A stretch of DNA of 34,320 bases from NCBI GenBank assembly GCA_902776305.1, contig CACYPS010000031.1, positions 25,041 to 59,360 of the forward strand, in the 5' to 3' direction. Made by a program: the position numbers and the translations under genes. Positions within the stretch are counted from its first letter, which is position 1, and every line of letters starts with the position of its first letter. This DNA comes from an uncultured Lachnospiraceae bacterium. Its GTDB lineage: Bacteria > Bacillota > Clostridia > Lachnospirales > Lachnospiraceae. Shown piece by piece: positions 3,390 through 31,180 of this stretch. Below the pieces are notes generated by a model. That model ran no database searches and was not told the origin of the DNA. It worked only from the letters and a program-made list of their open reading frames with translations.

Positions 3390-4121
3390 TTACATTTTCT
3401 TCATACGGATCCGGAAGCAGCTTCGGTCTGTTCGCCCTTCGAAGAGTCGGGCATCGTCCGTCCGGTAAGCCCTGATGGTGATCGTATCGCCGGGACGGAT
3501 CTCCGTTAGATACTCCGCTTCAATCAAAGTGTTATCATAACCGATATATTCTTCCGTCGGAATCATATCCTCGACCACATCGAAATACCGGCAGTTGTTG
3601 ACATGCCCGTTGATATCAATGTGGCTGAAGCGTGCTGTGTAAAGACTCTCGGAGACAAGCCGGAGGTCATCAGTATTTTTGAACCAAATCGCAAGAGAAC
3701 GCGGCTCGGGGATCTCGTTTCCCGTGAGAAAACCGTCTATCTCGATTCCATATTCATCGGGGAATATAAAACTTCTGGTCTTCTCGTCAATCAGCATCCA
3801 CAAGGCACATCCCCTGACAAGGATTTCGTTTCCCGACGAGACTTCATAATGTCTCGGAAAAAATATCCGCATGGTCGGACCGGGCCAGGAGCGGAATGTA
3901 ACCTCCTCGTCGTAGCGTGGCATTCGGGTAATCTCCGCAGACTGTCTGGCGATGATCCAGAGAAGACCTTTGTCCAATGTCTTATTGCGTCCGACTCCTA
4001 GAGCTTCCGTGTGTGTGATGCTTGTTTCCTGAAAGAAACCGAGCATATTGGATAGCCTGAGCTCGCGATGCCGTGTCACATCACGGCTGTGTATAGTAAA
4101 TGTTTTCTCGAAATAATCCAT
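3390..4121 (-). CDS. Acyl-ACP thioesterase
   Basis: A 243-aa protein of the acyl-ACP thioesterase family (FatA/FatB-like, two tandem hot-dog domains), which hydrolyses acyl-ACP to free fatty acid and ACP in the cytosol. The length is normal for bacterial members. The N-terminal domain has the typical start (YFEKTFTIHSRDVTRHRELR) and the GLLWIIARQSAEI strand; the second domain carries the family block SHIDINGHVNNCRYFD (166-181) with the conserved Asp169-Asn171-His173 cluster. It is the last gene of a leftward operon, 11 bp after the acyl carrier protein. It presumably releases acyl groups carried by that ACP or by the housekeeping ACP; which chains it prefers cannot be read from the sequence. 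Confidence 0.9.
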   Translation of the reverse strand: MDYFEKTFTIHSRDVTRHRELRLSNMLGFFQETSITHTEALGVGRNKTLDKGLLWIIARQSAEITRMPRYDEEVTFRSWPGPTMRIFFPRHYEVSSGNEILVRGCALWMLIDEKTRSFIFPDEYGIEIDGFLTGNEIPEPRSLAIWFKNTDDLRLVSESLYTARFSHIDINGHVNNCRYFDVVEDMIPTEEYIGYDNTLIEAEYLTEIRPGDTITIRAYRTDDARLFEGRTDRSCFRIRMKKM

Positions 4122-4132
4122 AGTGAATTTCT

Positions 4133-4387
4133 TTATTTTGAATATTTTTCAATCGCGTCAATGAGCTGGCCGAGTGTCTTCAGACGATTCCACTGACGGT
4201 TCGGGATCTTAACGTCAAACTCGGCCTCGATTTTGCAGATAACAAGGATGAAGTTCATGGAATCCATAGCCATGTCCGTGTTCACAACAGAGCTCTCATC
4301 GAGTGGAACCCCGTTCAGTTCCGGAACACAATTGTAAATAATTTTCAGTGTTCGCTCTTTAATTTCGTCTCTTGACAGTTTTGCCAT
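4133..4387 (-). CDS. Dedicated acyl carrier protein
   Basis: An 84-aa acyl carrier protein. The attachment site for 4'-phosphopantetheine is Ser43 in the motif MDSMNF (41-46), followed by the acidic helix III region (CKIEAEFDVKIP) that partner enzymes dock to. Length and helix pattern fit the PP-binding family. The motif reads DSM rather than the DSL of housekeeping AcpP, and the gene stands between an adenylating ligase and a thioesterase rather than beside fab genes, so it is probably a specialised carrier. It starts 13 bp downstream of the ligase stop, so the two should be co-transcribed. Confidence 0.92.
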   Translation of the reverse strand: MAKLSRDEIKERTLKIIYNCVPELNGVPLDESSVVNTDMAMDSMNFILVICKIEAEFDVKIPNRQWNRLKTLGQLIDAIEKYSK

Positions 4388-4400
4388 TTTTTATCTCCCT

Positions 4401-5822
4401 TCAGACTAAACGTCTTTCAATTTCCCAGCGTCGTATCTTGCCCGTTGCAGTTCTCGGAAGCGGACCGCCATAGCTGATGACACCGCTGATCCGGAGCCCC
4501 ATCGCTCTTTTATCGTTGAACTCAGCAAGCAGACTATCTATGTTTTCAGGTACATTTTCTTCGGAATCACCGATGACCAGGAACGGTCTGTCCTGTTTCA
4601 GAATGACGGTGAGGTCCGAAAACCCGAGAAGTACCGAAAGTTCATCTTCATATTCCGGACAGAATATCTTCGTGCCGTCCGGGAGCACGAGCATATCTTT
4701 TTTTCGTCCTGTTAGGCGCAGCACACCACGCGTGTCCAGAGAACCGAGATCACCGGTGTAGAGCCTTCCGCCCTGAACCGGAATGATCGGGTGGCCGAGC
4801 ACATACGCAGGATTATCAATATTTTCCGCATCTTTTGTTACTGTCTCCGAAAAGTCCAGATATCCTTGCATCAGACAGGGCGTCACAACAGAAATCTCGC
4901 CGTCCGGCTCGATGCGAAAATCCGCACCGGGACATGGGTAGAGCGCGAACGGATCCTTCTGATCCTGCGTGATAGCGAGACCGCTGGATGTCTCTGTCAG
5001 CCCATACCCGAGATAGACATCCATTCCCATATCCTGCAGTGCTTTCACCGAAACGGCATCGAGCGGAGCCGCACCGATTAGTACGACCCGGAGGCTTGAG
5101 GGAAGAGCATGCTGAAGCATTAACATCTTAAGCAGGGAAGGTACGACCGGAAGAATAGTGGGTTTGAAAAATTCACAGTCACTGAAGAGATACCTTGTAC
5201 CCCTGCCGAGCGCAATCGTCGCCCCGTTAGTCAGTCCCCACAGCATTGTACAGACAAAACCGAAGACGTGAGAGAACGGGAGCAGCGACAGAATAATATC
5301 ACCCGGCCCGCACGGGAGCATGGCTTGTCCGGAGAAGCTGCTGCAAAGAAGGCTCTCCGATGTGAGGACGACAGCTCTGGAGCTGCCGGTCGTTCCCGAT
5401 GTGAAGAAAATGAGGCGGCCCTCATGAGTGTTTTCATCACCTGCCTGATACCACCGAGGCGCGCATCCGCACGCTTCACAGAGCTCCTCCTGAAGGTCGG
5501 GATCGGACGCGTAAATGCTCTCCGCGCCCGCCGTACGGGCCAGCGCAAACAGAGTCTCATCGGGCGTATTCTCATCTATCAGGATGACATCGCAGCCGGA
5601 TATCACACACGCGAATATCCGGATGAGCGTGGCCGGCTCGTGATCGGTCACAATCAGTTCGCTTCGAATGCCTGACAGCCGTATCTCGCTTTCTGCGCTG
5701 CGGATCATGTCGGCAAGTTCTGCGTACGATATGCTTTTCTGATCGTTTCCGTAGAGAACGGCCGTACCGAAATCGGTACTCCATACTTTGAGTAAATGAC
5801 GAAATAAATGACACATTTGCAT
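4401..5822 (-). CDS. AMP-dependent acyl-ACP/acyl-CoA synthetase
   Basis: A member of the ANL (AMP-binding) superfamily, 473 aa from the chosen start. It activates a carboxylic acid with ATP as acyl-AMP and transfers it to a thiol, here most likely the phosphopantetheine of the adjacent ACP. Motifs: the P-loop FFTSGTTGSS (139-148), GYGLTETS (272-279), YTGD (355-358), and the C-terminal catalytic lysine in RTATGKIRR (Lys462). The frame is open to a TTG at 5858, but the ATG at 5822 has a GGAG site 7 bp upstream and is preferred. First gene of the leftward acyl operon, divergent from the flavoenzyme operon. Substrate unknown; a fatty acid is likely from the context. Confidence 0.88.
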   Translation of the reverse strand: MQMCHLFRHLLKVWSTDFGTAVLYGNDQKSISYAELADMIRSAESEIRLSGIRSELIVTDHEPATLIRIFACVISGCDVILIDENTPDETLFALARTAGAESIYASDPDLQEELCEACGCAPRWYQAGDENTHEGRLIFFTSGTTGSSRAVVLTSESLLCSSFSGQAMLPCGPGDIILSLLPFSHVFGFVCTMLWGLTNGATIALGRGTRYLFSDCEFFKPTILPVVPSLLKMLMLQHALPSSLRVVLIGAAPLDAVSVKALQDMGMDVYLGYGLTETSSGLAITQDQKDPFALYPCPGADFRIEPDGEISVVTPCLMQGYLDFSETVTKDAENIDNPAYVLGHPIIPVQGGRLYTGDLGSLDTRGVLRLTGRKKDMLVLPDGTKIFCPEYEDELSVLLGFSDLTVILKQDRPFLVIGDSEENVPENIDSLLAEFNDKRAMGLRISGVISYGGPLPRTATGKIRRWEIERRLV

Positions 5823-5930
5823 AAAATCACTCCGTTTATTGCAAATATCTTGTGACAATTATATAATTAACTTATGATAATTTCTACATAAAATGGCAAA
5901 TATTAACGCAAAACAATCAAGGAGAGACAC
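5823..5930. promoter_or_regulatory. Divergent promoter region of the two lipid operons
   Basis: This 108-bp AT-rich region separates the two operons. Rightward, TTGTGA (5850-5855) and TATGAT (5873-5878) have 17-bp spacing, followed by the ribosome site AAGGAG before the ATG at 5931. Leftward, a TATAAT reads from 5863 to 5858 on the minus strand, with a weak TAGAAA at -35. The promoters overlap, so one regulator could control both operons. A 16-nt duplication of the isomerase start (ATGGCAAAyATTAAyG) occurs at 5893 and 5931; the first copy lacks a ribosome site. Confidence 0.55.
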
Positions 5931-7289
5931 ATGGCAAACATTAATGAGAAGATATGTATTATCGGCGCAGGACCGGCCGGTCTTTCGGCGGCAATGTATC
6001 TTGAACAGAAAGGATACTTCAACTACACGATCCTTGAGAAGGAGGATCATGTCGGTGGAAAATGTCATTCACCGCACTACAACGGCAGAAGATATGAGAT
6101 GGGAGCAATCATGGGAGTACCGTCCTATTATGCCGTTCACGATGTGGAAGAGTTCTGCGGTATTACACACGACGGACCGAAACTGAATCGTAATTATAAG
6201 AATCTGAAGGGTAAAGTTATCGAGCCGTTCGAGCCGAAGAAAAACCCGCTCAAGATTCCGCGCCTGCTCAAGATGAGAAAGCAGCTGAAGGTGTTCGGCG
6301 AACTCCTTGAGACAAAGTACAAGGGATATGATGTTAACGGACACCGCGGCGTAGCGGAAGGCCGCTATGACGGATATGCCGTAACGCCGGATCGTGAGAA
6401 AATCTCCGGCGAGAACCCGAATCTGAAGGATCTGGCTCTCCCGTTCAAAGAGTTCTGTGAACTCAACGGTGTTGAACTCGTTCAGGATATCTGGATCGGA
6501 CCGTTCACTTCCTTCGGCTACGGATATTTTGATGAAATCCCGGCGGCATATGTCCTGAAATACCTTGATTTCCAGACGACCATGAATTTCGTCAAGGTCA
6601 ATCTCTGGACATGGAAAGAGGGTACACAGTATATCTGGGAATGCCTGAATGACAAGCTTCGCAACCAGGCAAGACTGAATTCCGATATCACATCGGTAGA
6701 GCGCCATGACGGAAAAGTATTCGTGACTGTGAATGACGAAGTCGAAGTATATGACAAGATTATTGTTACGGCACCTCTTCAGTTCCTGCCGAATTATTTT
6801 GATGCGACAGAGGAAGAGAAGGAACTCTTCTCGAAGATCGATTATGAGAGATATGACGTTCTCGCAGTCGAGACAAAACCGGAGAATCATCCTGAGATTT
6901 CCTATTATATTTTTGACAACATGACTCCGGAGAGATATGGCCATCTGATGGTCTATTACCGTCGGTGGAAAGACAGCGTGGACCAGGTCATCACGACCTA
7001 CGCACTGCGCAATCACAGAGGAAAGAGAACATATAAGACAAGTGCATGCAAGAAAATAGTTCTTAAGGATCTCGAGGCTATGGGAAATGCAGCATCCAAG
7101 GTCGTCAATGAGAAGAACTGGTATTATTTCCCGCACGTTTTCACTGAAGACTATGCGGCAGGCTGGTATGACAAGGTCGAGGCTATGCAGGGTATGAACG
7201 GGACCTACTATGCCGGTGAGATTATGTCCTTCGGCGATATGGATGAGACAGCTGAATATTCACGTGAACTTGTGGACAGATTCTTCTGA
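5931..7289 (+). CDS. Polyunsaturated fatty acid (linoleate) isomerase-like flavoprotein
   Basis: A 452-aa FAD enzyme of the flavin amine oxidase superfamily. The N-terminus binds FAD: GAGPAG (12-17), Glu36 ending strand beta-2, then the GGKCHSP block (42-48). Several blocks match what I remember of the P. acnes polyunsaturated fatty acid isomerase PAI, which turns linoleate into trans-10,cis-12 conjugated linoleate without net redox: MYLEQ near the start, GRRYEMGAIMGVPSY (52-66), AAYVLKYLDF, LWTW-EGTQ, WYYFPHV, and YYAGEIMSFG (426-435). It is slightly longer than PAI (about 424 aa), mainly from an insertion around residues 95-140. Start supported by AAGGAG. First gene of the rightward operon. 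The resemblance is from memory; double-bond specificity cannot be predicted. Confidence 0.85.
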   Translation: MANINEKICIIGAGPAGLSAAMYLEQKGYFNYTILEKEDHVGGKCHSPHYNGRRYEMGAIMGVPSYYAVHDVEEFCGITHDGPKLNRNYKNLKGKVIEPFEPKKNPLKIPRLLKMRKQLKVFGELLETKYKGYDVNGHRGVAEGRYDGYAVTPDREKISGENPNLKDLALPFKEFCELNGVELVQDIWIGPFTSFGYGYFDEIPAAYVLKYLDFQTTMNFVKVNLWTWKEGTQYIWECLNDKLRNQARLNSDITSVERHDGKVFVTVNDEVEVYDKIIVTAPLQFLPNYFDATEEEKELFSKIDYERYDVLAVETKPENHPEISYYIFDNMTPERYGHLMVYYRRWKDSVDQVITTYALRNHRGKRTYKTSACKKIVLKDLEAMGNAASKVVNEKNWYYFPHVFTEDYAAGWYDKVEAMQGMNGTYYAGEIMSFGDMDETAEYSRELVDRFF

Positions 7290-7301
7290 TGATGAACGGT
7301 C

Positions 7302-7370
7302 AGGGGGCTGTCGTAATAAGGTATATGACCACTATTCATGACAGTGTTATTACCTGTTGCGACAACCCCT
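7302..7370 (+). other. Long intergenic hairpin within the flavoenzyme operon
   Basis: AGGGG-x2-TGTCG (7302-7313) pairs with CGACA-x-CCCCT (7360-7370), and further inner pairing is possible (AGGTA with TACCT, CACT with AGTG). No T-run follows, so it is more likely an mRNA processing, stability or translational-control element between the isomerase and the second flavoprotein than a terminator. Confidence 0.5.
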
Positions 7371-7412
7371 CTCTTTATCCGGAGAAGAGCACGAGCTTAA
7401 ACAGGAGTAAAT

Positions 7413-9017
7413 ATGAAGTTTTATAAAGAGCATTATGATGTGATTATTATGGGCGCCGGTCTTGCAGGTCTGTCCGCAGCCCTGCAGCTCCAGGCCAGAG
7501 GCATCACAGACATTCTGATCCTGGAAAAGCATAACCTTCCCGGCGGTCTTGCCACGAGTTATGTCAGGAACGGAATCGAGATCGAGGCAACACTCCATGA
7601 GATGATGTCGATCGGTTCCAAGGAGGATCGGCTGAAGGTCGGCACGTTCTTTGACGAGATGGGAATTGATATTGACTGGCTGAAGGTACCGGAAGCATAT
7701 CGTTTTATTGAGAAGACGAAGAAGATCGACATCACCCTGCATTCAGGTTTCGAGACCATGTCGAATGAAATCGACGCACAGTATCCGGGATGGGGTGACA
7801 AAGTATATGATTTTATGAATCTGTGCAACCGGGTCTACAATTCCATGAATATCCTCTCTGTCACGCCGATGAGTAAACCGGAGATGCTGAAGAAACATCC
7901 TGATTTTGTCAAGACAGTCGGGTATTCGGCAAAGCAGGTCATGGAGACGTATAAATTCCCGCAGGATATAGTGGATATACTGACGCCGTACTGGATTTAT
8001 GTCGGCAACCCGATGAGTTCACTTCCGTTCACGATCTATGCCTTCCTTATGGCGGATTACTTCCGCGGGGGAAGTTATGTCTGCCGCAATTTCTCACACG
8101 AGATGAGCATGAAGCTGCAGGCTAAGGTGGAGGAGAACGGTGCGCAGATCGAGTTCCGTCAGGAAGTCGAGAAGATTCTTGTCCGCAATAAGAAAGTTTA
8201 CGGGGTGCGCACGAAGAGAGGGGACGAGATATTTTCCGATTATGTCATCAGCGCCGCATACCCTAACAAGGTCTACACACAGATGATCGAGCCGCTGTCG
8301 GAAGTTCCGGCAGGTGCGATAAAGATGGTCAATGCAAGAAAACTGTCCGTCTGTCCGGTCTCGGTCATGATGGTCCTGGACGGAACGCCGGAGGAACTCG
8401 GGATTCGGGATTACAATGTCTTCTCGGGAGATACGATGGATACGGACAAGATCTGGGAAAATTACCACACGCTCGGCCCGTACGGATACCTGACATCGAT
8501 CTGCCTCAATCTGGCCAATCCGGACTGCACGCCGGAGGGATATACACAGTTCTCCATTACCGCACTTCCTCTGGTCGATCCGTTCCTCGACGTGAAGGAG
8601 ACGGAGTACCATGCGCTGAAGCGCCGTCTGGCCTCGGAGATGATAGCGAATTACGAGGAGACAACAGGGGTCAACATTCACGACCATATCGTTGAGATCG
8701 AAGTGGAGACGCCGGTCACGGTCGCACATTATGTCGGTGCCTGGAAGGGAAGCATTTACGGATACTCTCATTCGCTGGATGACCACGCAGTCGCACGCCT
8801 TCAGATGAAGGAGGAAGATCATTTTATTGAAGGTCTGGAATTTGCCGGCGCACACGGTATATCAGGTAACGGTATGGGACCCGCTGTGACGAACGGACGG
8901 GCAGCCGCCAAAGGAGTACTGGACTCGCGCAAAGAACAGAAAGAAGATTACAGACTGGTATCAGGTTACATGAAACTGGCTGACATGCTGAACAGGAGAA
9001 AGGGGGCTGACAAATGA
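7413..9017 (+). CDS. Phytoene desaturase/retinol saturase-like FAD oxidoreductase
   Basis: A 534-aa flavoprotein of the CrtI/CrtISO/RetSat superfamily. The FAD fold begins at residue 9 with GAGLAG (14-19) and Glu38, followed by PGGLATSY (43-50) and a substrate-channel region (EATLHEMMSIG). The C-terminal FAD signature lies in the Gly-rich segment at 474-502 (FAGAH, GNGMGPAV, NGRAAAKGV). Members desaturate, isomerise or, as retinol saturase does, reduce one double bond of a conjugated polyene. In an anaerobe, between a fatty-acid isomerase and an NAD(P)H:ferredoxin-type reductase, reduction of a conjugated dienoic fatty acid is the most economical guess; this is inference. Ribosome site AGGAG upstream. 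The stop overlaps the next start by 4 bp, indicating translational coupling. Confidence 0.85.
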   Translation: MKFYKEHYDVIIMGAGLAGLSAALQLQARGITDILILEKHNLPGGLATSYVRNGIEIEATLHEMMSIGSKEDRLKVGTFFDEMGIDIDWLKVPEAYRFIEKTKKIDITLHSGFETMSNEIDAQYPGWGDKVYDFMNLCNRVYNSMNILSVTPMSKPEMLKKHPDFVKTVGYSAKQVMETYKFPQDIVDILTPYWIYVGNPMSSLPFTIYAFLMADYFRGGSYVCRNFSHEMSMKLQAKVEENGAQIEFRQEVEKILVRNKKVYGVRTKRGDEIFSDYVISAAYPNKVYTQMIEPLSEVPAGAIKMVNARKLSVCPVSVMMVLDGTPEELGIRDYNVFSGDTMDTDKIWENYHTLGPYGYLTSICLNLANPDCTPEGYTQFSITALPLVDPFLDVKETEYHALKRRLASEMIANYEETTGVNIHDHIVEIEVETPVTVAHYVGAWKGSIYGYSHSLDDHAVARLQMKEEDHFIEGLEFAGAHGISGNGMGPAVTNGRAAAKGVLDSRKEQKEDYRLVSGYMKLADMLNRRKGADK

Positions 9018-10192
9018 AAATAGAAAGCTTTTTGAAAGATGTCGGCGGAGCCTCAAGGGTGACCGCCGCACGCCGCGAAAAGTTCAGGAAGGGCTCCCCG
9101 ATACCGGAACCTGAAGATCCGATCCGCGCTCTGTCCGATGCACTGCATCCGGATAAGATACGTTTTATCGTGACGGATGTGAGGGATGTTTCGCCGACAT
9201 CGAAGACGTGGAGACTAAGATCGACCGACGGACACATTCCGATTTTCCAGTCCGGACAGTATGTATGTTTCCATCTGCAGATCGGCAACAGTGTTCTGAA
9301 CCGTCCTTATTCCATCTCATCGGCTCCGTTTGAATCAAAGTGTGACAATCCTTTTATTGAGGTGACAATACGCAGGAACAGACCTTATTTTGTTCCGGAT
9401 TATTTCTTCGATCATGTAAAGGTCGGGGAGGTCCTCTGGGGTTCGATGCCGTTCGGAACATTTTATTATGAACCGCTCCGCGATTCGAAGAATGTTGTCG
9501 CGATAGCGGGCGGCAGCGGTATCACGCCGTTTGTTTCGATGGCCAGGGAGATCGCAGCCGGGTGGCTTGATGTCAATCTGACGATCATCTACGGTTCCGT
9601 TCACTCGTCGGATATTGTATGCGGCAGAGAACTGGATGAAATAGACCGGAAATGCGATAAGGTAAAAGTTGTTCACGTGATGTCCGACGATCCGGATTGG
9701 CAGGGCGAGAAAGGATTCGTTAACCGGGAGATTATCGAGAAGTACTCCGGGGAAGATACAACGTATATGTTCTGCGGTCCGTACGCTATGTATACATTTG
9801 TCGAAAAAACCATGAAGGAGATGGGTGTACCGGCCGGAAAATTCCGCAAGGATGCGATTGCTCAGCCCGATGTCAGCCTGATTCCCGGTTATCCCTCGGA
9901 TAAAAAAGACGAGGTCTATACGATCAAGGTCATGAGAGGTATTCACGAGGATATCATACAGGCAGCAGCTTCGGAACCTGTTGCGGTCGCGGTCGAGAGA
10001 GCGGGCATCGCACTGGATACGCACTGCCGCGGAGGTGAATGCGGAATGTGCAGAAGCCAGTTGCTCGAAGGTGAGATCTTCGTATCGCCGATCGGGGACG
10101 GAAGACGCCGCATGGATAAGGAGCTCGGATGGTTCCACGCATGCTCGGCGTATCCTATGTCCGACCTTGTGATCAAGATTCCGATTCTGTAA
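9014..10192 (+). CDS. NAD(P)H reductase with C-terminal [2Fe-2S] ferredoxin domain
   Basis: A 392-aa modular electron-transfer protein. After a 45-residue leader come the ferredoxin-reductase FAD domain with RPYS (98-101), the NAD(P)-binding domain with GGSGITPF (166-173) and CGP (254-256), and a plant-type [2Fe-2S] ferredoxin domain from about residue 300 with ligands Cys338, Cys343, Cys346 and Cys377 (C-x4-C-x2-C-x30-C). It can take hydride from NAD(P)H and pass single electrons to a partner. The 4-bp ATGA overlap with the preceding flavoprotein suggests that protein is the partner. Related reductases serve oxygenases, but no oxygenase is present, which fits an anaerobic reductive pathway. 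No clear terminator follows. Confidence 0.9.
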   Translation: MKIESFLKDVGGASRVTAARREKFRKGSPIPEPEDPIRALSDALHPDKIRFIVTDVRDVSPTSKTWRLRSTDGHIPIFQSGQYVCFHLQIGNSVLNRPYSISSAPFESKCDNPFIEVTIRRNRPYFVPDYFFDHVKVGEVLWGSMPFGTFYYEPLRDSKNVVAIAGGSGITPFVSMAREIAAGWLDVNLTIIYGSVHSSDIVCGRELDEIDRKCDKVKVVHVMSDDPDWQGEKGFVNREIIEKYSGEDTTYMFCGPYAMYTFVEKTMKEMGVPAGKFRKDAIAQPDVSLIPGYPSDKKDEVYTIKVMRGIHEDIIQAAASEPVAVAVERAGIALDTHCRGGECGMCRSQLLEGEIFVSPIGDGRRRMDKELGWFHACSAYPMSDLVIKIPIL

Positions 10193-22033: not shown

Positions 22034-22076
22034 AGATGCTTAGTGCGCAATTGACTGCACTAAGCATCTGTTTTTT
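22034..22076. terminator. Bidirectional terminator at the 3' end of the AIPR gene
   Basis: A perfect 13-bp stem (22034-22046 with 22057-22069) has a 10-nt loop, with T-rich flanks on both strands (TTTTTT rightward, TTTTC leftward). It ends the leftward AIPR transcript; its rightward T-run overlaps the AIPR stop codon. Confidence 0.88.
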
Positions 22077-23916
22077 AAGAAAGAGAGTTGAATATGCTCT
22101 TTATATCTGTCTCCATGGAACCCATCCACCCTGATTCAAGAATTCCATAATAGTTCTTGTCTTTTTTAAGGAAATTAGATATGATCAAGCCTTCTTCAAA
22201 ACGCGCCATCATTGAAAAATAATTGATGCCGGCATTGATAATGATCATGAAGAGCTTATACAGAACATCATCGTATGCATCTTTATCTGCAAATACAGCC
22301 GGAGGAATAAAGTAGGAAATATCATCCAAGTTTTTAAAGTCATCATATACTTGTGAGTAAGGTGGTTCGCGTCTGGATGCAGCGAAAACATCTGCAAGAT
22401 CATCGTCATTAATATTGCCTTGATAATAACGCGCAGCAAGTGCTACAAATGCGATACAGATTGTTCTTGAATTATGGGCGAATGCAAGTCTATTCTGCGA
22501 GTTTGGCCGGTTCCTGTTTTCTGTATCAAAGCGCTTTTGGAATTTCTTCCTGAAATAGTAATCAATGTAAAGAAGCTCTTTACAGAGATTGGCAATTGTG
22601 GATTGGTTACCGTCAAAAACAAGGTTGTAGTACTGTGGCATATACAGTGAGGAGGGTTTGTTTCTACTTGTTCCTGGCATTTGGAAGATTGCAGATAAGC
22701 ACAACTTTCCAATTTCTGCAAGGTCAGTATTAAGGTAAGCGGTTTTAAAGGCTGATGGAACAGTCTCACCCCTTTTAGTCTGATAATAAAGACCTACTTC
22801 TCGCATAGCTTGGCTGAACCTTACTTGTTCTGGAGAATTTGCCTTGAGGTCAATAGGTTTGATTGCTTTTTGCGAGTTTGTAGCTTTTGCAATTTCAAGA
22901 CTGAACAAGTTCTTTTCATCTTCCGTTTCCCCACAGTTTTCGATAATTTTACATGGAACATAAAAGTCCCGGGATTCAGACACATTCTTGTTCTTATGAA
23001 TCATGTATGTAGTTTGGCCGCCGTTTACAATAGAGAAATTTTTGAGTTTTACTTCTCGTCCATCAATTGAGAATTCATCGCAAACAATAGTGATTCCATT
23101 GTTTTTGATCCAGAATGTGTCTGGACTATTATTAATGGTATCTTCAATTCCTTTGTCAATTTGTCTTCCAGAGACGTGATACCTGAGATTCCGAGAGAGA
23201 AGGTTTGTATTGTGCTGAGCATACAAGGTCTTGATGGAAAAAGCGGAGGCATTGACGAATGCAGCATTGTCTCCATAAAGTAGATAGTTATTAGACTCGT
23301 CGATCATTATCTTGCCAGACTCAACCGTAGGCCTACGAGATTCTGACTCCTTTATTTCTGATACAACGTCTGGTCCGAAATAGATATGTACTTCAAAATT
23401 ACTGGAATCTTCAAATAATTCCATAAATTTTCTTATAAGGCGATCCCTGCGAATATTGTTCTGAGGAGCGCTTGTGTAGAATACAAACTGAACTTTAGAT
23501 TCTTCTCCTACTTCGGAATCTAAAGATAAAAATCGAGATTGTACTTTTGCATTGACCTGTTCGTAGTGACCGCTTTTCATGTCCTTATAGAATGAAGCCA
23601 TTTTTGTTAATGCATTGAAAACGTCCTCACTGGATATAGACTGGTAATATTTTGATTGTCCGATGACAAGATCTGAGGCTTCTGTGTTCGGGTCACTTAA
23701 AAGGAAGTCTACGCCCCCGTCGTACTGGCCATCCACAACAATATCATCAAAATCAGATTCATTCAGAATCAATGCCGGGTTTTTATAATAGCTTGATTTT
23801 ACGGCTAACGCTGAAAAAACATACTCATTAGGTTTGTTTCTTAAAGACGCATAGGCGTCTTTTAGAGAATTGATTTTAGAGGAGATATAATCATATGATG
23901 TCTGGGCGATTGGCAT
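22075..23916 (-). CDS. AIPR-family abortive infection phage-resistance protein
   Basis: A 613-aa protein of the AIPR (abortive infection phage resistance) family. The recognisable core lies around residues 255-330 (IEDTINNSPDTFWIKNNGIT, then FSIVNGGQTTYMIHK). The N-terminus looks like a restriction-endonuclease fold: Asp66/Asp70 in YDGGVDF, then VIGQSK with Gln87 and Lys89, which fits a D...QxK variant of PD-(D/E)xK. A nucleic-acid-cleaving, possibly self-targeting defense effector is therefore likely; the trigger is unknown. Start supported by AAAGGAG. It is the only island gene on the minus strand, has its own terminator, and is flanked by the two 70-bp repeats, so it looks like an independent cassette. 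Confidence 0.87.
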   Translation of the reverse strand: MPIAQTSYDYISSKINSLKDAYASLRNKPNEYVFSALAVKSSYYKNPALILNESDFDDIVVDGQYDGGVDFLLSDPNTEASDLVIGQSKYYQSISSEDVFNALTKMASFYKDMKSGHYEQVNAKVQSRFLSLDSEVGEESKVQFVFYTSAPQNNIRRDRLIRKFMELFEDSSNFEVHIYFGPDVVSEIKESESRRPTVESGKIMIDESNNYLLYGDNAAFVNASAFSIKTLYAQHNTNLLSRNLRYHVSGRQIDKGIEDTINNSPDTFWIKNNGITIVCDEFSIDGREVKLKNFSIVNGGQTTYMIHKNKNVSESRDFYVPCKIIENCGETEDEKNLFSLEIAKATNSQKAIKPIDLKANSPEQVRFSQAMREVGLYYQTKRGETVPSAFKTAYLNTDLAEIGKLCLSAIFQMPGTSRNKPSSLYMPQYYNLVFDGNQSTIANLCKELLYIDYYFRKKFQKRFDTENRNRPNSQNRLAFAHNSRTICIAFVALAARYYQGNINDDDLADVFAASRREPPYSQVYDDFKNLDDISYFIPPAVFADKDAYDDVLYKLFMIIINAGINYFSMMARFEEGLIISNFLKKDKNYYGILESGWMGSMETDIKSIFNSLS

Positions 23917-24030
23917 AATTCAGCTCCTTTCCTGTAGTAAGGTATATTATTAATTTATCGCAGATAATAAAGCAACACAAGCCTCTATATACTTCTATTC
24001 AATTTACAACGCATAAACAGATGTATTTTC

Positions 24031-24100
24031 CGAAGAAATGAAAAAGGATTCCTGTAGTCGGGGGACGGCAGAGGGAATCCTTTTTTGCGGTGAAGGGATA
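24031..24100 (+). repeat. 70-bp terminator-like repeat, copy 2
   Basis: It shares 57/70 positions with copy 1 at 21882-21951. The stem AAGGATTCC (24044-24052) with GGGAATCCTT keeps the outer pairs although the bases changed, followed by TTTTT. It lies upstream of the AIPR start, where no rightward gene needs a terminator, so its presence suggests a duplication or insertion event. Confidence 0.8.
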
Positions 24101-24128
24101 TAAGTCGTCGGCATGGACGTGTGTTTTA

Positions 24129-24137
24129 TGATACAAT
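24129..24137 (+). promoter_or_regulatory. Extended -10 promoter of the GIY-YIG/hsd operon
   Basis: TGaTACAAT is an extended -10 box without a good -35. The predicted start is near 24144, downstream of the first possible ATG (24113), which supports translation from the ATG at 24179. Confidence 0.5.
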
Positions 24138-24178
24138 ATTACCGGAAAAGTGACTATCAGCACATAGAGGGCAAAACT

Positions 24179-25042
24179 ATGGCATACGGAAAAACGATAG
24201 AATTATATTTGGTGAACGGAACCGCTGACAGCATCATCACAGCAGAACTGTCAAACTGGAATGGAAAAGCGATTAAGATTCCTCGCATAGAAGTCTCTTC
24301 GTGCAAACGTCAGGATATCTGTGATCCGGGAGTATACTTTCTTTTTTGCAAAGAAGATGATGGGACTGATGCGGTATACATCGGTGAAGCTGAGAATGTC
24401 AAAGAGCGACTTGTACAGCATATCCGTGATAACCAGGCAGAGAAGGAAACGTATTATTGGACCACGGCGGTCTTGTTTACCGGGCGCGATCTGAACAAAG
24501 CCTTGATTCGTTATTTGGAAAACCGACTTGTTGAGATTGCTCGTAGTAGTAACCGGTATAAGGTTCTTACGAAGAATACCTACAAAAATACAGTTATGAA
24601 AGAGTCGCAGATATCTGCGATGGAAGAGTTCATAGAAAACATCAAAGTTTTAATTAATGCGCTGGGATATAAAGTTCTTGAGCCATTCGTGGTACAGAAT
24701 GCAAATGGGAAGGCTGATGATGCAAGTGAAGAATTCTTTTTATCTGCCGGTTCAGCAAGTGCAAGAGGGATAGTAACAGCGGAGGGTTTTGTCGTATATA
24801 AAGGAGCAGTTATGAACGAAAAAATTAGCATTAAGTCCGTAGGTGCTGGTATTGTCAGGTTGCGCGATAAGCATATCAAAGATGGTCATATTGAAGATAA
24901 CGTAACAACAGAGGATATATTGTTCAACAGCTCTTCTGCAGCAGCAAATTTCATACTCGGCTACAGCGTGAGTGGTCCTCAGACTTGGAAAACTCAGGAT
25001 GGAAGAACCCTTAAAGAAATTGAATCAAGCGAGGCAAACTGA
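24179..25042 (+). CDS. GIY-YIG nuclease with DUF4357 domain
   Basis: A 287-aa protein from the chosen start. The GIY-YIG nuclease domain shows GVYFLF (51-56) and VYIGEAENVKERL (66-78), with Arg77 as the expected catalytic arginine, and a glutamate in RYLENRL (about 115) as the expected metal ligand. The C-terminal 100 residues (SARGIVTAEGFVVYKGA, then IEDNVTTEDILFNSSSAAANFILG) match the DUF4357 pattern often fused to GIY-YIG nucleases in restriction and defense loci. The domain should cleave one DNA strand in a metal-dependent way. It is the first gene of a rightward run into the type I restriction genes. The frame is open to 24113, but that start would precede the promoter. Confidence 0.88.
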   Translation: MAYGKTIELYLVNGTADSIITAELSNWNGKAIKIPRIEVSSCKRQDICDPGVYFLFCKEDDGTDAVYIGEAENVKERLVQHIRDNQAEKETYYWTTAVLFTGRDLNKALIRYLENRLVEIARSSNRYKVLTKNTYKNTVMKESQISAMEEFIENIKVLINALGYKVLEPFVVQNANGKADDASEEFFLSAGSASARGIVTAEGFVVYKGAVMNEKISIKSVGAGIVRLRDKHIKDGHIEDNVTTEDILFNSSSAAANFILGYSVSGPQTWKTQDGRTLKEIESSEAN

Positions 25043-25103
25043 AAAAGGATAGGTGGTGAACAGAATGTATCACTACTCATCTATTATAGATTGAGAATGC
25101 TTT

Positions 25104-25724
25104 ATGGAAAGAATAGAAGAATACAATTCGTTGCGTCAGGAAATCCTTCAAAGAGACGCTAAGTATAATGAATATTTGCAGATTGCGTGTGCTGTAACTA
25201 CAGCGGTATTAACATTTGCATTAGGACAGAAAGAACCCATGGTTTGCATAGTCCCGATAGTAATGATCGTTCCGCTTTATAGACTCGGATTAGAACAATT
25301 AAATCAGGAGTTAAAGATAGGAATGTACCTTTATGTTTTCTACAGTGATGAGGGTCTCTTATGGGAAAAACGCCATAAGACATATTACAGAGTAGAAAAA
25401 AACATAATTGAAGAAAACAAAACAAAGGGAAGAAATGGAACAACAATAGAACGTGATCCTAATCATTGGTTATATATCGTTTTAATACTAATATGTGCTT
25501 TATTATCCTTTTATAAGATGTTCGATGTGGGCTATTCAGCTAATGGGTTAACAGTTCGATTATTCATTGTAGTGTTGGTAACAACAATGTCAATACTATT
25601 GGTATTAATATTTAGGAAGAAGTATTCCTATGGCAGAGGAAAGCTTTTTATAGAAATTTGGGAGCAGATAAAAAAAGAAGAGAATAATAAAAAGCAACAT
25701 GAAGAACAGCCGGGGGTGAGCTGA
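25104..25724 (+). CDS. Four-helix membrane protein abutting hsdR
   Basis: A 206-aa protein with two membrane hairpins: helices at about 24-41 and 46-63, then about 121-138 and 150-170, joined by a charged loop (65-120) and ending in a Lys/Glu-rich cytoplasmic tail. The topology recalls SLATT/S-4TM-type proteins, considered pore-forming effectors of nucleotide- or phage-sensing systems, but I see no diagnostic motif and the identity is uncertain. The stop codon is followed immediately by the hsdR ATG (0 bp gap), with the hsdR ribosome site inside this gene, so the two are translationally linked. It is AT-rich compared with hsdR. A role tied to restriction is inferred from position only. Confidence 0.78.
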   Translation: MERIEEYNSLRQEILQRDAKYNEYLQIACAVTTAVLTFALGQKEPMVCIVPIVMIVPLYRLGLEQLNQELKIGMYLYVFYSDEGLLWEKRHKTYYRVEKNIIEENKTKGRNGTTIERDPNHWLYIVLILICALLSFYKMFDVGYSANGLTVRLFIVVLVTTMSILLVLIFRKKYSYGRGKLFIEIWEQIKKEENNKKQHEEQPGVS

Positions 25725-28049
25725 ATGATACTCGATAAAAAGAACATGACGGAAGAGGATATCAAGCTCAATTTTATCACGCCTGCAATCAACGCCAGCG
25801 GCTGGAGGAACGGCTACAACATTACCATGGAGACCAAGATCACGGACGGAAAGATCAATATCCGTGGGAACATGGCCTACCGTGAAAAAGCGAAGAAGGC
25901 CGATTATCTCCTGTATCTTAACAGGTATTATCCTATCGCTGTTGTGGAGGCAAAGGACAATAACCACAGCGTCTCCTACGGCCTTCAGCAGGCAATGACC
26001 TATGCGCAAATGCTGGAACTTCCTTTTGCGTACAGTTCGAACGGGGATGGTTTCTACGAGCACGACTTCCTGACCGGTGCAGAACGGGAACTTAAGATGG
26101 ACGAGTTCCCGACCATGGAGGAGCTGGTCGACCGCTACCGGAAAGGGACGAATGGCGGCGCCGGTCTCAGTGAGCAGGAGTGGAAGCTGATCCAGCAGCC
26201 CTATTACTCCGGCCAGAAAACGTACCCGCCGAGATACTACCAGCGCAACGCCGTCAACAATACCCTCGACGCTGTGGCAAGGGGGCAGGACAGGATCCTG
26301 CTCGTTATGGCCACCGGAACCGGAAAGACCTACACGGCATTCCAGATCGTCTACAGGCTCCTGACCAGCGGGGTAAAGCGCAAGGTGCTGTATCTTGCCG
26401 ACCGGAACAATCTTGTGGACCAGTCAATACAGCAGGATTTTTCACCACTGGAGAAGGTCATCCACAAGGTCAATTTTGCAAAAGACAATAAGAATACGAT
26501 AACGGCTTATCAGGTCTATTTTGCCCTGTACCAGCAGTTAATCGGGGACAATGATCAGGAGCACTACAGCGAGCTCTTTGATCCGGACTTTTTTGACCTC
26601 ATTATCGTCGATGAGTGCCACAGGGGTTCCGCAAAGGCAGACAGCCGCTGGAGGAGGATTCTGGAATACTTCAAGAGTGCTACCCAGATCGGTATGACGG
26701 CGACTCCCAAAGAGACCATGTACGTCTCGAACATAGACTACTTCGGAAAGCCAGTCTATGAGTACAGTCTGAAGACGGGGATCGAGGATGGCTTCCTTGC
26801 CCCGTTCCGGGTGCTTGGCATGACGATGAACATCAGCGATGGCTGGAGGCCGTACAAAGGGCAGAAGGATTATTACGGGAACGAGATAGAGGACCGTATT
26901 TACAATAACAAAGATTTTGACTATAACATCATTCTTGCAGACCGGATTAACGAGGTGGCTTATCGAATATCGGAGTATTTGAAAAAATATGGACGAATGC
27001 AGAAGACCATCGTGTTTTGCGCAACGGAGGATGCGGCGGAGCGGATGCGCATCGCTCTTGTGAATCAAAACAAAGATATGGTCCAGCAGAATCCTGATTA
27101 CGTTGTCCGCATTACAGGATCGGATGAATACGGGAGGGGCAAGCTACAATATTTCATCTCTGCGACACAGAAGTATCCGGTCATCGCGACGACCTCCGAA
27201 TTGCTGTCCACGGGATCAGACTGCAAGATGACGCAGCTCATCGTTCTGGACAAGAATATAAACTCTATGACACAGTTCAAGCAGATCATCGGGCGTGGCA
27301 CTCGTGTTCGTGAGGACCAGGGGAAGCTCAGCTTCACGATCATGGATTTTCGTGCCGTGACACGGCTCTTTGCTGATCCCGACTGGGACGGACCCGTAGA
27401 ACAGGTAGACGGATATAATCCGCTGGAGGACAAGCCGGATAAAACGCCGGGAGAAAAGGAGCCGGGAGAGAAGCCTCCGATGCCTTATGTGGACGTAGAA
27501 GGGGCCAAGGTATACCTGACACAGCAGCTTGTATCGGTCTATGACGCGAACGGGAAGCTGCTCCGGCAGGAGAACATTATCGACTACACAAGGAGGAACA
27601 TCCTCGGCAGCTATGCAGACCTTGCGACGTTCATACGGAAGTGGTCCGAGGCAGATAAAAAAGAAGCCATCACGCAGGAACTCAGGGAACACGGCATCGA
27701 CCTAAATATGCTTAAGAAGGAAGAACATATGGAGGAAGTTGATGACTTTGACTTCATAACCCATGTGGCCTACGACCAGAAGCCGCTGACCAGACGGGAG
27801 AGGGCGGAGAACGTGAAGAAGCGGGACTTCCTGCATAAATACAACGGTGTGGCCAGAAAAGTCATAGAAGCATTAATTGAAAAATATGCCAATGACGGCA
27901 TTACGGAAATAGAAAAGACAGAGGTGCTGAGGCTCGACCCGTTCAAGCGGATGGGGAACCCGGCACGGATTGCAAAGCTCTTCGGCGGCAAGGAAGGCTA
28001 TTTGAAAGCCGTCAAAGAGCTCGCAGAAGAAATTTACAGAATAGGATGA
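25725..28049 (+). CDS. hsdR: Type I restriction enzyme R subunit
   Basis: A 774-aa motor and nuclease subunit (EcoEI-like family, shorter than EcoKI-type HsdR). The N-terminal nuclease domain has ADYLLYL with Asp60 and VVEAK with Glu75 and Lys77. The SF2 helicase shows MATGTGKT (195-202), DECH (296-299), MTATP (324-328) and QIIGRGTRVRED. The C-terminal region (about 590-774) is the domain that docks to the methylase. With HsdM and HsdS it translocates and cuts unmodified DNA far from its target. No inactivating change is seen. It follows the membrane protein with no gap and precedes hsdM by 7 bp. Confidence 0.95.
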   Translation: MILDKKNMTEEDIKLNFITPAINASGWRNGYNITMETKITDGKINIRGNMAYREKAKKADYLLYLNRYYPIAVVEAKDNNHSVSYGLQQAMTYAQMLELPFAYSSNGDGFYEHDFLTGAERELKMDEFPTMEELVDRYRKGTNGGAGLSEQEWKLIQQPYYSGQKTYPPRYYQRNAVNNTLDAVARGQDRILLVMATGTGKTYTAFQIVYRLLTSGVKRKVLYLADRNNLVDQSIQQDFSPLEKVIHKVNFAKDNKNTITAYQVYFALYQQLIGDNDQEHYSELFDPDFFDLIIVDECHRGSAKADSRWRRILEYFKSATQIGMTATPKETMYVSNIDYFGKPVYEYSLKTGIEDGFLAPFRVLGMTMNISDGWRPYKGQKDYYGNEIEDRIYNNKDFDYNIILADRINEVAYRISEYLKKYGRMQKTIVFCATEDAAERMRIALVNQNKDMVQQNPDYVVRITGSDEYGRGKLQYFISATQKYPVIATTSELLSTGSDCKMTQLIVLDKNINSMTQFKQIIGRGTRVREDQGKLSFTIMDFRAVTRLFADPDWDGPVEQVDGYNPLEDKPDKTPGEKEPGEKPPMPYVDVEGAKVYLTQQLVSVYDANGKLLRQENIIDYTRRNILGSYADLATFIRKWSEADKKEAITQELREHGIDLNMLKKEEHMEEVDDFDFITHVAYDQKPLTRRERAENVKKRDFLHKYNGVARKVIEALIEKYANDGITEIEKTEVLRLDPFKRMGNPARIAKLFGGKEGYLKAVKELAEEIYRIG

Positions 28050-28056
28050 CAGAAAT

Positions 28057-29544
28057 ATGAGTGATTTGGGAAGTTTCGTAAAACGGCTGAGGGACATTAT
28101 GCGGAACGACGCAGGCATTAACGGCGATGCCCAGCGTATCGAGCAGATCGCATGGATGCTCTTTTTGAAGGTGTACGATGCGCAGGAAGAGAACTGGGAA
28201 TTTGATGAGGAGGACTATGTCTCTATCATCCCGGAGGACTGCCGGTGGAGGAACTGGGCAGCGGACGATGGGAAGGGCACGGCGCTGACAGGTGACCTGT
28301 TGTTGAACTTCGTCAATAATACGCTGTTCCCGACATTAAAGGGACTTGAAATAGACACTGACACGCCGATCAAGAAGGCCATTGTGAAGTCCACCTTCGA
28401 AGATGCCAACCAGTATATGAAGGATGGCGTGCTCCTTCGGCAGGTCATCAATATCATCGACAGCGTTGACTTCGGTGATTATGAGGAGAGCCATGCGTTT
28501 GGCGATATTTATGAGGCAATTCTGAAGGAGCTGCAGAGCGCCGGCAGTGCCGGTGAATTCTATACGCCTCGCGCTGTGACCGACTTTATGGCAGAGATGA
28601 TAAAGCCCCGGATCGGTGAGACAATGGCTGATTTTGCCTGTGGCACAGGAGGCTTCTTAGTCAGTTGGATCAAGAGACTTGAAGACCAGGTGGAGACCAC
28701 AGAGGACTCTGATGCCATGCACAGGTCTATTTACGGCATCGAGAAGAAGCAGTTCCCGTACATGCTCTGCGTCACGAATATGCTCCTTCACGGTGTAGAC
28801 GTTCCCCGCGTGTACCATGACAACTCTCTGCTGAGGGATGTTCTTGACTATACGGAGAAGGACCAGTTTGACGTCGTTCTCATGAATCCCCCCTACGGCG
28901 GTTCCGAAAAAGCTGACGTGAAAGGACACTTCCCAGCAGATCTTGCAAGCTCGGAGACGGCTGATCTTTTCATGACTGTGATCATGTACAGATTAAAGCA
29001 GGAAGGTCGTGCAGCGGTGATCCTTCCTGACGGATTCCTGTTCGGTACAGATAATACAAAGGTGGCCATCAAGAAGAAGCTGATGAGCGAGTTCAATCTG
29101 CATACGATTATCCGTATGCCGAGCAGTGTGTTCTCGCCGTATACATCCATTACAACAAATATCCTGTTCTTTGAGCGGGAAGGAACCACAAAGAAGGTGT
29201 GGTTCTACCGCATGGATATGCCGGATGGATACAAGCATTTCTCTAAGACAAAACCGATGAAGAGTGAGCACTTCGACGCTGTGCGCGAGTGGTGGGAGAA
29301 CCGAACCGAGATCAAGGACGCAGATACCGATACCTTCAAGTCGAAATGCTATACCGCCACTGAGATTGCAGATGGCAACTACAATCTTGACCTCTGTGGA
29401 TATCCTCATGAGGAAGAGGAAATCCTGCCTCCCAAAGAGCTGATTCAGCAGTACCAGGAGAAGCGAGCCAGCCTGAATGCGGATATTGACAGGATTCTTG
29501 CCAAGATTACAGGCATCCTTGGGATAGAAGAGGATGGTGAGTGA
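28057..29544 (+). CDS. hsdM: Type I restriction-modification methyltransferase M subunit
   Basis: A 495-aa adenine-N6 methyltransferase subunit. An N-terminal helical domain (about 1-140) precedes the catalytic core with GEFYTP (166-171), the AdoMet loop DFACGTGG (192-199) and the catalytic motif NPPY (277-280). Motifs and length are those of complete HsdM proteins, so it should be active. It methylates the host target sequence chosen by HsdS and forms the M2S core of the restriction complex. The start lies 7 bp after the hsdR stop, and hsdS begins 1 bp after its stop. Confidence 0.96.
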   Translation: MSDLGSFVKRLRDIMRNDAGINGDAQRIEQIAWMLFLKVYDAQEENWEFDEEDYVSIIPEDCRWRNWAADDGKGTALTGDLLLNFVNNTLFPTLKGLEIDTDTPIKKAIVKSTFEDANQYMKDGVLLRQVINIIDSVDFGDYEESHAFGDIYEAILKELQSAGSAGEFYTPRAVTDFMAEMIKPRIGETMADFACGTGGFLVSWIKRLEDQVETTEDSDAMHRSIYGIEKKQFPYMLCVTNMLLHGVDVPRVYHDNSLLRDVLDYTEKDQFDVVLMNPPYGGSEKADVKGHFPADLASSETADLFMTVIMYRLKQEGRAAVILPDGFLFGTDNTKVAIKKKLMSEFNLHTIIRMPSSVFSPYTSITTNILFFEREGTTKKVWFYRMDMPDGYKHFSKTKPMKSEHFDAVREWWENRTEIKDADTDTFKSKCYTATEIADGNYNLDLCGYPHEEEEILPPKELIQQYQEKRASLNADIDRILAKITGILGIEEDGE

Positions 29545-29545
29545 T

Positions 29546-31024
29546 ATGATGACAGCGGAAGATTTAAAATATTCAATTCTGCAGCTTGCTATGTGTGGGA
29601 AGCTTGTAGATCAAAGATCAGAAGAAGGGACAGGAGAAGGTCTGTATAAAAAGATGCAGGCCGACAAAACGAGGCTTATTCGTGAACATAAAATCAAAAA
29701 AGACAAGCCATTGGCAGAAGTAACAATAGAAGAACTGCCATTTGAAGTTCCTCAGAATTGGAAAGCTGTCCGTGTAGGAGAAATTGGTTCTTGGTCTGCT
29801 GGTGCTACTCCATCAAGAAGTCATCCGGAGTATTATGGTGGAAATATCCCATGGCTTAAAACTGGAGATCTTAATGATGGCGATATATACGAAGTGCCTG
29901 AATTCATTACAGAAGAAGGTGTGCAGCATTCGTCTGTAAGACTGAATCCGGTGGGATCCGTTCTTATGGCGATGTATGGGGCGACCATTGGCAAACTGGG
30001 AATCTTACAAATCGAAGCAACGACTAACCAAGCATGCTGCGCTTGCATTTGCTATGAAGGAATGTGGAACAAGTATTTATTTTACTATCTGTTATCACAG
30101 AGGAAAAATTATATAGCAATGGGCGCAGGGGGAGCACAACCTAATATCTCAAAAGACAAGATAGTTAATTCTATTATTGCCCTACCTCCCCTCGCAGAAC
30201 AAAAACGCATCGTCGCAAAGATCGAGGAGCTGATGCCTTTCGTAGAGCAGTACGCAGCTGCCAGCACTAAGCTGAATACACTCAATGCTTCGTTCCCAGA
30301 AATGATGAAAAAGTCGATCCTGCAGGAAGCGGTGCAGGGAAAGCTCGTACCGCAGGATCCTAACGATGAACCGGCAAGTGTGCTGCTGAAGAAAATTGCA
30401 GAAGAGAAGAAGAGACTTATTAAAGAAGGGAAGATAAAGACGCAGAAACCGCTACCAGAGATTACGGAAGACGAGATTCCTTTCGATATTCCTGAGAGCT
30501 GGGAGTGGGTTAGGATAGGTGAGATATTCAAAGTCGGAACAGGCATGACGCCGCTAAAGGGAAATTCTCTGTTTTATGATGGGGGTACTATTCCATGGAT
30601 AACTTCCTCATTAACATCAGAACGTTACATTAAACAAGCAAATTCATTTGTTACACAATATGCAGTTGAGAACACTACATTGACCGTGTACCCAGCGCAC
30701 TCGTTGATAATTGCAATGTATGGACAGGGAAAGACGCGTGGGCAAGTATCAGAGTTATTAATAAATGCAACGACAAATCAAGCTTGTGCAGTGTTGGAGT
30801 ATTATATTTATTATCCAGAACTGATCGAATATACATATTATTATTTCATGTTTAATTATGATGTCCTCAGGAAGAAAGCAGAAGGGACGTCTCAACCCAA
30901 CTTGAATTTGAAAAAGATTGTCGAAACTATTATTCCGATTCCACCGCTTAATGAGCAGAGGAGGATAATAGCTAAAACTAAAGAGATTATTAATGGTATA
31001 GGGCACTCTCTTCTAAATGATTAG
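29546..31024 (+). CDS. hsdS: Type I restriction specificity subunit
   Basis: A 492-aa DNA-recognition subunit from the ATG at 29546, which directly follows the hsdM stop and has GGTGAG as ribosome site (an in-frame ATG at 29534 would overlap hsdM). It has two target-recognition domains (about 72-215 and 318-480), each ending in a PPL-EQ(K/R)RI(V/I)AK helix. The two halves are repeats: SILQ-A--GKLV-Q starts at residue about 10 and again at about 257, and each is followed by K-L-E(V/I)T and then P(F)(E/D)(V/I)P--W--VR-GEI. Two different TRDs imply an asymmetric bipartite target. TRD2 is markedly AT-rich, as expected of swapped domains. Confidence 0.94.
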   Translation: MMTAEDLKYSILQLAMCGKLVDQRSEEGTGEGLYKKMQADKTRLIREHKIKKDKPLAEVTIEELPFEVPQNWKAVRVGEIGSWSAGATPSRSHPEYYGGNIPWLKTGDLNDGDIYEVPEFITEEGVQHSSVRLNPVGSVLMAMYGATIGKLGILQIEATTNQACCACICYEGMWNKYLFYYLLSQRKNYIAMGAGGAQPNISKDKIVNSIIALPPLAEQKRIVAKIEELMPFVEQYAAASTKLNTLNASFPEMMKKSILQEAVQGKLVPQDPNDEPASVLLKKIAEEKKRLIKEGKIKTQKPLPEITEDEIPFDIPESWEWVRIGEIFKVGTGMTPLKGNSLFYDGGTIPWITSSLTSERYIKQANSFVTQYAVENTTLTVYPAHSLIIAMYGQGKTRGQVSELLINATTNQACAVLEYYIYYPELIEYTYYYFMFNYDVLRKKAEGTSQPNLNLKKIVETIIPIPPLNEQRRIIAKTKEIINGIGHSLLND

Positions 31025-31056
31025 TAGTAATTACATCCTAAATGACTACTACTTTT
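31022..31056 (+). terminator. Weak terminator after hsdS
   Basis: TAGTAGT (31022-31028, starting at the hsdS stop codon) pairs with ACTACTA (31045-31051), followed by CTTTT. The stem is AT-rich and modest. Confidence 0.4.
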
Positions 31057-31068
31057 ACTACTAAAGAC

Positions 31069-31180
31069 TGCTGTGTTATGCCAAATTATGCCGATTTATG
31101 GCAAAATCTGTAACTGTTACAAAAATGTTAAAGCGCCCAAACTGCCGATAAAACAGGGCTTTTCTCGGCATAACACGGCA
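31069..31180. repeat. 112-bp element bounded by 17-bp inverted repeats
   Basis: TGCTGTGTTATGCCAAA (31069-31085) and the complement of CTCGGCATAACACGGCA (31164-31180) agree at 14 of 17 positions. Further ATGCC/GGCA half-sites lie inside (31079-31102) and a TGCCGA/TCGGCA pair at 31143-31170. It may be a small non-coding insertion, a recombination site or a structured RNA. The rest of the 359-bp gap between hsdS and the XRE gene holds only the terminators and promoter listed. Confidence 0.6.

Follow-up and report, generated by a model that had tools for sequence, protein, structure and literature searches.

What is the job of a gene set in which a fatty acid isomerase, a flavoprotein of the carotenoid desaturase fold and an electron-transferring reductase stand back to back with proteins for activating, carrying and releasing an acyl chain? 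Such a set lies in the window – the whole stretch of 34,320 nucleotides analysed here, from an uncultured Lachnospiraceae bacterium. Its six genes are linked in many gut bacteria of cattle, goats, sheep and deer, and most likely act on dietary polyunsaturated fats. We consider it probable that they form a cassette for the anaerobic biohydrogenation of dietary polyunsaturated fatty acids (PUFAs), a process that sets the amount of unsaturated fat reaching milk and meat.

Six genes and the proteins they encode

Six intact open reading frames occupy positions 3390–10192, with ACS, ACP and TE running leftward and PAI, RED and FNR running rightward from a common divergent gap. The original prediction had named these six genes, and all of them are open and belong to the families expected; the interval it gave for them (4401–10192), though, omits ACP and TE.

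The leftward arm begins with ACS (4401–5822, minus strand), an acyl-adenylate-forming synthetase (PF00501, 133 bits) of 473 residues if read from the ATG at 5822, or 485 from an upstream TTG; it matches the malonyl-CoA synthetase 4fuq in the PDB (E 1.7e-16). The adjoining acyl carrier protein gene suggests that its acyl acceptor may be ACP rather than CoA. ACP itself (4133–4387, minus strand; 84 residues) scores 27.4 bits against PF00550, for which the cut-off is 20.8, and carries the serine of a DSM motif. It is followed by TE (3390–4121, minus strand), an acyl-ACP thioesterase of 243 residues that exceeds the cut-offs of both PF01643 (74 bits) and PF20791 (47 bits), and whose best PDB match is the putative oleoyl-ACP thioesterase 2own (E 5.8e-16).

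The divergent gap (5823–5930, 108 bp) holds overlapping promoter-like sites on its two strands: TTGCAA-17-TATAAT at 5839–5867 on the plus strand and TAGAAA-17-TATAAT at 5886–5858 on the minus strand. Between 3200 and 10500, 14 promoter-like sites were counted against 9.1 ± 3.1 in shuffled sequences, a weak excess. A comparison of 50 ACS–PAI gaps yielded no common palindromic operator, the best palindrome occurring in 4 of the 50, and the frequent 8-mers of these gaps are mostly start-of-gene or promoter letters shared among related sequences. Rfam returned no match anywhere in the window. Beyond the cassette, PurL is the next gene rightward of FNR, and an SH3-domain protein lies beyond TE. For both RED and PAI, plasmid records gave a single weak match, at 27.7% identity (Ligilactobacillus) and 27.8% (Photobacterium), respectively.

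PAI (5931–7289, plus strand) is an FAD-dependent polyunsaturated fatty acid isomerase of 452 residues, belonging to the PF01593 family. Its homology to the crystallised fatty acid isomerase of Propionibacterium (Cutibacterium) acnes (2b9w; E 5.5e-143) is full-length, running in two stretches (5–139 and 166–452 of 452) with 211 of 385 aligned residues identical (55%). The two enzymes share their fold family and differ in a stretch of 27 residues (140–165) of the window protein that is left unaligned. Arg88 and Phe193 of 2b9w, which we take to be the fatty-acid gate residues, are kept as R87 and F220.

The next gene, RED (7413–9017, plus strand), encodes a CrtI-fold flavoprotein of 534 residues (PF01593, 60 bits), which we propose to be a conjugated-diene reductase. 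It shares the fold of the CrtI/carotenoid desaturase family and scores below the curated cut-offs (106.3 bits for the TIGR02734 crtI family, cut-off 238; 102.5 bits for TIGR02730 carot_isom, cut-off 587); we also assume a resemblance to retinol saturase (RetSat). Those structural relatives of RED that have been characterised best are desaturases, and a common fold does not fix the direction of a reaction.

The stop codon of RED is overlapped by the start of FNR (9014–10192, plus strand; 392 residues), an NAD(P)H/FAD reductase with a C-terminal [2Fe-2S] domain and the proposed electron donor to RED. Its NAD-binding (PF00175 NAD_binding_1, 72 bits) and ferredoxin (PF00111 Fer2, 33.5 bits) domains both exceed their cut-offs, its FAD-binding domain (PF00970 FAD_binding_6) falls just under, at 21.0 against 21.1 bits, and cysteines C338, C343, C346 and C377 are invariant in all 14 aligned sequences. 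FNR stays below every curated subfamily cut-off, its best NCBIfam match being BenC (124 bits, cut-off 430). Homology to characterised enzymes is strong in the case of PAI, moderate in that of FNR and, for RED, limited to the level of the fold.

A conserved unit with a dedicated acyl carrier

When 84,980 species genomes were scanned with a RED alignment, 555 relatives emerged, of which the best 80 were kept as named loci; the locus counts in this and the next three paragraphs refer to these best 80 of 555. FNR directly follows RED in all 79 loci with 300 bp of downstream sequence. PAI directly precedes RED in 63 of all 80 loci and, where 1.6 kb of upstream sequence is available, in 54 of 64, the other ten of these having RED and FNR without an adjoining PAI. 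In the 57 loci whose upstream sequence extends to 4.3 kb or more, ACS is found in 47, ACP in 44 and TE in 44, and all six genes in 44. Median identities to the window proteins are 76% for PAI, 69% for RED, 62% for FNR, 52% for ACP, 45% for TE and 40% for ACS; the divergence of the last three has not broken up the layout. Since the other neighbours in the window recur in only one to three of the 80 loci – an open reading frame at 285–2135, the SH3-domain protein, PurL and ORF K in one each, and PBP in three, two of them at 29–30% identity – it is the six genes that are kept together and not their surroundings. A YgfK-like protein was considered as a seventh core gene and dismissed, as it lies directly downstream in merely 15 of the 58 loci with room for it.

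By their titles, 64 of the 80 loci are of ruminant-gut origin (a hand count without a baseline for the collection): 28 RGIG titles and one from red deer name the animal, and 35 carry RUG-type names, RUG presumably standing for 'rumen uncultured genome'. The remaining 16 titles show no ruminant origin, one being a scaffold of Firmicutes bacterium CAG:103. The expectation that RED would recur in one conserved unit with the isomerase and an electron carrier of its own is thus borne out, mostly in ruminant-gut Clostridia.

With neighbours that activate, carry and release acyl chains or transfer electrons recurring in this way, a role in carotenoid or polyene pigment metabolism, which the shared fold of RED and the carotenoid desaturases might suggest, becomes very improbable: what surrounds RED are fatty-acyl genes, and phytoene/squalene synthase (PF00494) was found in none of the 41 genomes searched, the host's own included, while 7 of 14 control genomes were positive. 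Neighbours that consistently point to another pathway such as pigment synthesis, one of the outcomes that the original prediction had named as speaking against it, are not what the loci contain.

ACP and TE track PAI, not RED. All three of ACS, ACP and TE accompany 44 of the 47 PAI-bearing loci (the exceptions being L106, L114 and L119), and none of the ten PAI-less loci has ACP or TE, three of them having ACS; for ACP and TE, Fisher's test gives p 6.6e-9, a value to be read with the loci being related and not independent. This association is also what a biosynthetic unit would display, in which ACS loads ACP, the bound acyl chain is remodelled by PAI and RED, and TE frees an altered fatty acid for a membrane lipid or signal. 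Sets of ACS, ACP, a modifying enzyme and TE occur in alkyne-tag biosynthesis. Yet the cassette has no recurrent neighbour among ketosynthases, acyltransferases or transporters, the hosts are largely ruminant-gut anaerobes, to which PUFAs are abundantly available, and PAI is close to a free-fatty-acid enzyme, all of which makes a biosynthetic role improbable. In the biohydrogenation that we favour, ACS, ACP and TE may load the fatty acid on a dedicated carrier and later release it, with ACP acting ahead of the redox steps, in the course of them or once they are complete; it counts against this reading that the trio fits poorly with free-fatty-acid chemistry, the P. acnes isomerase reportedly taking the free fatty acid as its substrate.

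Linkage was also followed through closer relatives, in sets that overlap the named loci by at least three (from G022, G005 and G010). Among 61 same-genus relatives, RED (counted at ≥60% identity) is present in nine: G000, G022, G034, G005, G035, G030, G032, G010 and G013. FNR directly follows it in all nine and PAI lies immediately upstream in seven; in G013, PAI is about 14 kb from RED on the same contig, and in the genome of G034 (75% complete), which has RED and FNR, PAI was not found. The complete divergent ACS–ACP–TE arm is present in five of the nine (G000, G022, G005, G035 and G030). The contigs of G034 and G010 end in or just beyond ACS, those of G013 are too short for this arm to be judged, and in G032 a TE gene is found on the other flank instead, past FNR and a gene resembling YgfK.

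An order-wide search of 392 genomes (E ≤ 1e-60), whose second step scored three to four candidates per genome, so that weak or third copies may escape it, found RED in 12 and PAI in five, the two being adjacent in G000, G274 and G348. The last of these (also L072), from another genus of the family, has all six genes in identical layout, with identities to the window of 33% (TE), 35% (ACP), 46% (ACS), 68% (PAI), 50% (RED) and 48% (FNR). In a different family, G233 (also L079) keeps the order of a PAI-like gene (26%), RED (27%, its reading frame interrupted by one stop) and FNR (31%). Two genomes have PAI but no RED: G217, and G147, in which the genes after PAI are HypB-like and YgfK-like. Conversely, PAI was not found genome-wide in the RED–FNR carriers G423 and G155, nor in G034; since RED and FNR occur in loci and genomes devoid of PAI, RED apparently also functions apart from it.

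In a RED tree of 89 rows, built by a quick method, PAI adjoins RED on the deepest RED1 branches (L143, L147, G274 and G348), and the label 'no PAI' switches eight times, at least seven of them on well-supported branches, a count that takes in four RED2 outgroup rows as well as G423 and G155. Most simply, this would mean that the association of PAI with RED is ancient and that PAI has been lost several times. A paralogous pair, RED2–FNR2, has an AMP-binding enzyme next to it in G035 and a 4HBT thioesterase close by in G030.

A predicted trans-10 route

In the proposed pathway, PAI would shift a double bond of linoleate to produce a conjugated diene, which homology predicts to be trans-10,cis-12 conjugated linoleic acid (CLA). 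RED would then saturate one bond of this diene, most likely the cis bond, with two electrons and two protons, to leave a trans monoene. The electrons would pass from NADH or NADPH to the FAD of FNR, from there to its [2Fe-2S] domain, and on to the FAD of RED. The host would benefit from the removal of toxic PUFAs and from an electron sink, and the six genes might amount to the complete detoxification pathway that had been envisaged for them.

The product is where our reading parts from the original prediction, which had named vaccenate. Because the P. acnes isomerase gives trans-10,cis-12 CLA, as stated in the available portions of PMC7339423, PMC13365329 and PMC10019597, the cassette probably follows a trans-10 route and its predicted monoene is trans-10 18:1. 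The second step would be known chemistry, since a B. fibrisolvens reductase converts trans-10,cis-12 CLA to trans-10 18:1, according to excerpts of PMC7339423.

For RED, both the activity and its direction are proposals: the protein is accompanied by a [2Fe-2S] reductase of its own that draws on NAD(P)H, as a net reduction would lead one to expect, and RED is probably a conjugated-diene reductase. Were RED instead a second isomerase or a dehydrogenase – working, for example, redox-neutrally with reduced flavin, like the plant carotenoid isomerase – FNR would only keep its FAD reduced and the cassette would end at particular CLA isomers. The carotenoid isomerase score of RED is level with its crtI score, and the solved structures closest to it are those of desaturases for gamma-carotene and phytoene. 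Against this stand the RED–FNR pairs without PAI in several lineages, which point to a RED independent of the isomerase, and the adjacent reductase in every one of the 79 loci (best 80 of 555), which suits stoichiometric use of electrons better than activation; we therefore regard an isomerase or dehydrogenase as unlikely. A separate route for PUFAs and CLA, hydration by the fatty acid hydratase MCRA, was set aside as the host's own alternative: in a search of 41 genomes MCRA was above cut-off in 11, including the cassette-bearing G022, and was not found in G000, so that it would be an extra route in some genomes.

Beyond net reduction, one may ask – tentatively, as we rather doubt that all of it holds – whether RED and FNR represent an undescribed family of two-component ene-reductases acting on an unactivated conjugated hydrocarbon chain, with PUFA isomerisation and reduction taking place, in most of the bacteria concerned, on the dedicated ACP between loading by ACS and release by TE. 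If so, a trans-10 biohydrogenation pathway that is genetically encoded and works on a carrier would be spread across uncultured ruminant-gut Clostridia, and RED2–FNR2 would be a second such reductase, for a different fatty acid.

Relation to known systems

The presence of PAI in rumen Lachnospiraceae is already published: excerpts of PMC10019597 (2023) report it in 7 of 228 rumen metagenome-assembled genomes (Lachnospiraceae 2, Oscillospiraceae 1, unclassified 4) and tie the trans-10 pathway, or trans-10,cis-12 CLA, to low milk fat. The word 'reductase' is absent from the main text of that paper, the available portions of which describe no PAI neighbourhood or partner genes; those of PMC6037716, PMC9533493 and PMC12254105 name no such cassette genes either. 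A full-text search of the open literature (Fukuda 2007 and Hughes 1982 being outside its scope) likewise found no description of a reductase partner of PAI or of the cassette. A conserved cassette in which a trans-10-type isomerase adjoins a likely reductase and its electron donor would provide genetic markers, together with a few candidate proteins, for lineages other than Butyrivibrio.

The best-known counterpart is that of Butyrivibrio fibrisolvens, whose isomerase and CLA reductase (CLA-R, characterised biochemically) follow, in the accessible parts of PMC2654759 and PMC4786556, the same logic of isomerising and then reducing one bond. Unlike the trans-10 route predicted for the cassette, that of Butyrivibrio leads through cis-9,trans-11 CLA to vaccenate. 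The isomerase of Butyrivibrio is bound to the membrane (PMC12254105, in part), and its oxidoreductase could not be searched for in genomes, according to an excerpt of PMC4478896. The parallel with Butyrivibrio drawn in the original prediction holds as an analogy only, none of the 80 locus titles (best 80 of 555 relatives) naming that genus.

Each protein of the rightward arm also departs from its closest known relatives. C. acnes stops at trans-10,cis-12 CLA (PMC7339423, in the portion available), whereas in the window PAI has RED and FNR downstream of it and the ACS, ACP and TE genes opposite. RED is set apart from CrtI, carotenoid isomerase and retinol saturase by a [2Fe-2S] reductase gene of its own, which overlaps it, and no carotenoid genes were found near it. 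FNR, finally, shares its FAD, NAD(P)H and [2Fe-2S] domains with reductases of the BenC/Hcr/PaaE type, yet its proposed partner is a flavoprotein in anaerobes rather than an oxygenase.

Neighbours of the cassette in related loci

Among the best 80 of 555 relatives of RED, the cassette's CrtI-fold flavoprotein and proposed reductase, a YgfK-like Fe-S flavoprotein of 900-970 aa lies beside the cassette in 25 of the 80 loci (L085, L105, L107, L116, L163 and others) – sometimes in duplicate – and directly downstream of it in 15 of the 58 with room for such a gene. In the same set it is accompanied by HypA in eight loci and by HypB in eight. The window's own genome encodes a 59% homologue on a contig other than the window's (C37:465-3263; locus L170), and the YgfK-like protein may be a second redox partner.

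Pairs of HGD-D proteins (2-hydroxyglutaryl-CoA dehydratase/benzoyl-CoA reductase type) are found near the cassette in 8 of these best 80 of 555 (L107:18876-21506; further loci L098 and L086-L093), six of the eight belonging to one Mogibacterium-like clade. In L087, L089, L090, L091 and L093, the place of the isomerase PAI, just upstream of RED, is occupied by a DUF5692 membrane protein encoded on the strand opposite RED (L087:8689-9810; 373 aa, PF18948 at 416 bits for this copy); one guess is that it represents a different isomerase.

Paralogues and a plasmid homologue

A paralogous pair, RED2-FNR2 (about 32 and 38% identity), occurs without PAI at L034:9628-12376, on contig C34 of the window's genome, and also at L044 and L045. 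It is divergent from an AMP-binding protein gene in genome G035 and lies downstream of a 4HBT thioesterase in G030.

Separately, a Ligilactobacillus acidipiscis plasmid (NZ_CP113927.1; L174) carries a 28% RED homologue, which is followed by an FAD-binding oxidoreductase gene and adjoins a divergent TetR regulator, with an FAD synthetase gene close by.

An A+T-rich region of the window

Window positions 22075-33910 are richer in A+T (GC 0.38-0.42 in most 2-kb steps). One AIPR and one GIY-YIG/DUF4357 protein are encoded there, as are a type I restriction-modification set at 25725-31024 and an HTH/M78-like pair; this region is likely a defence island.
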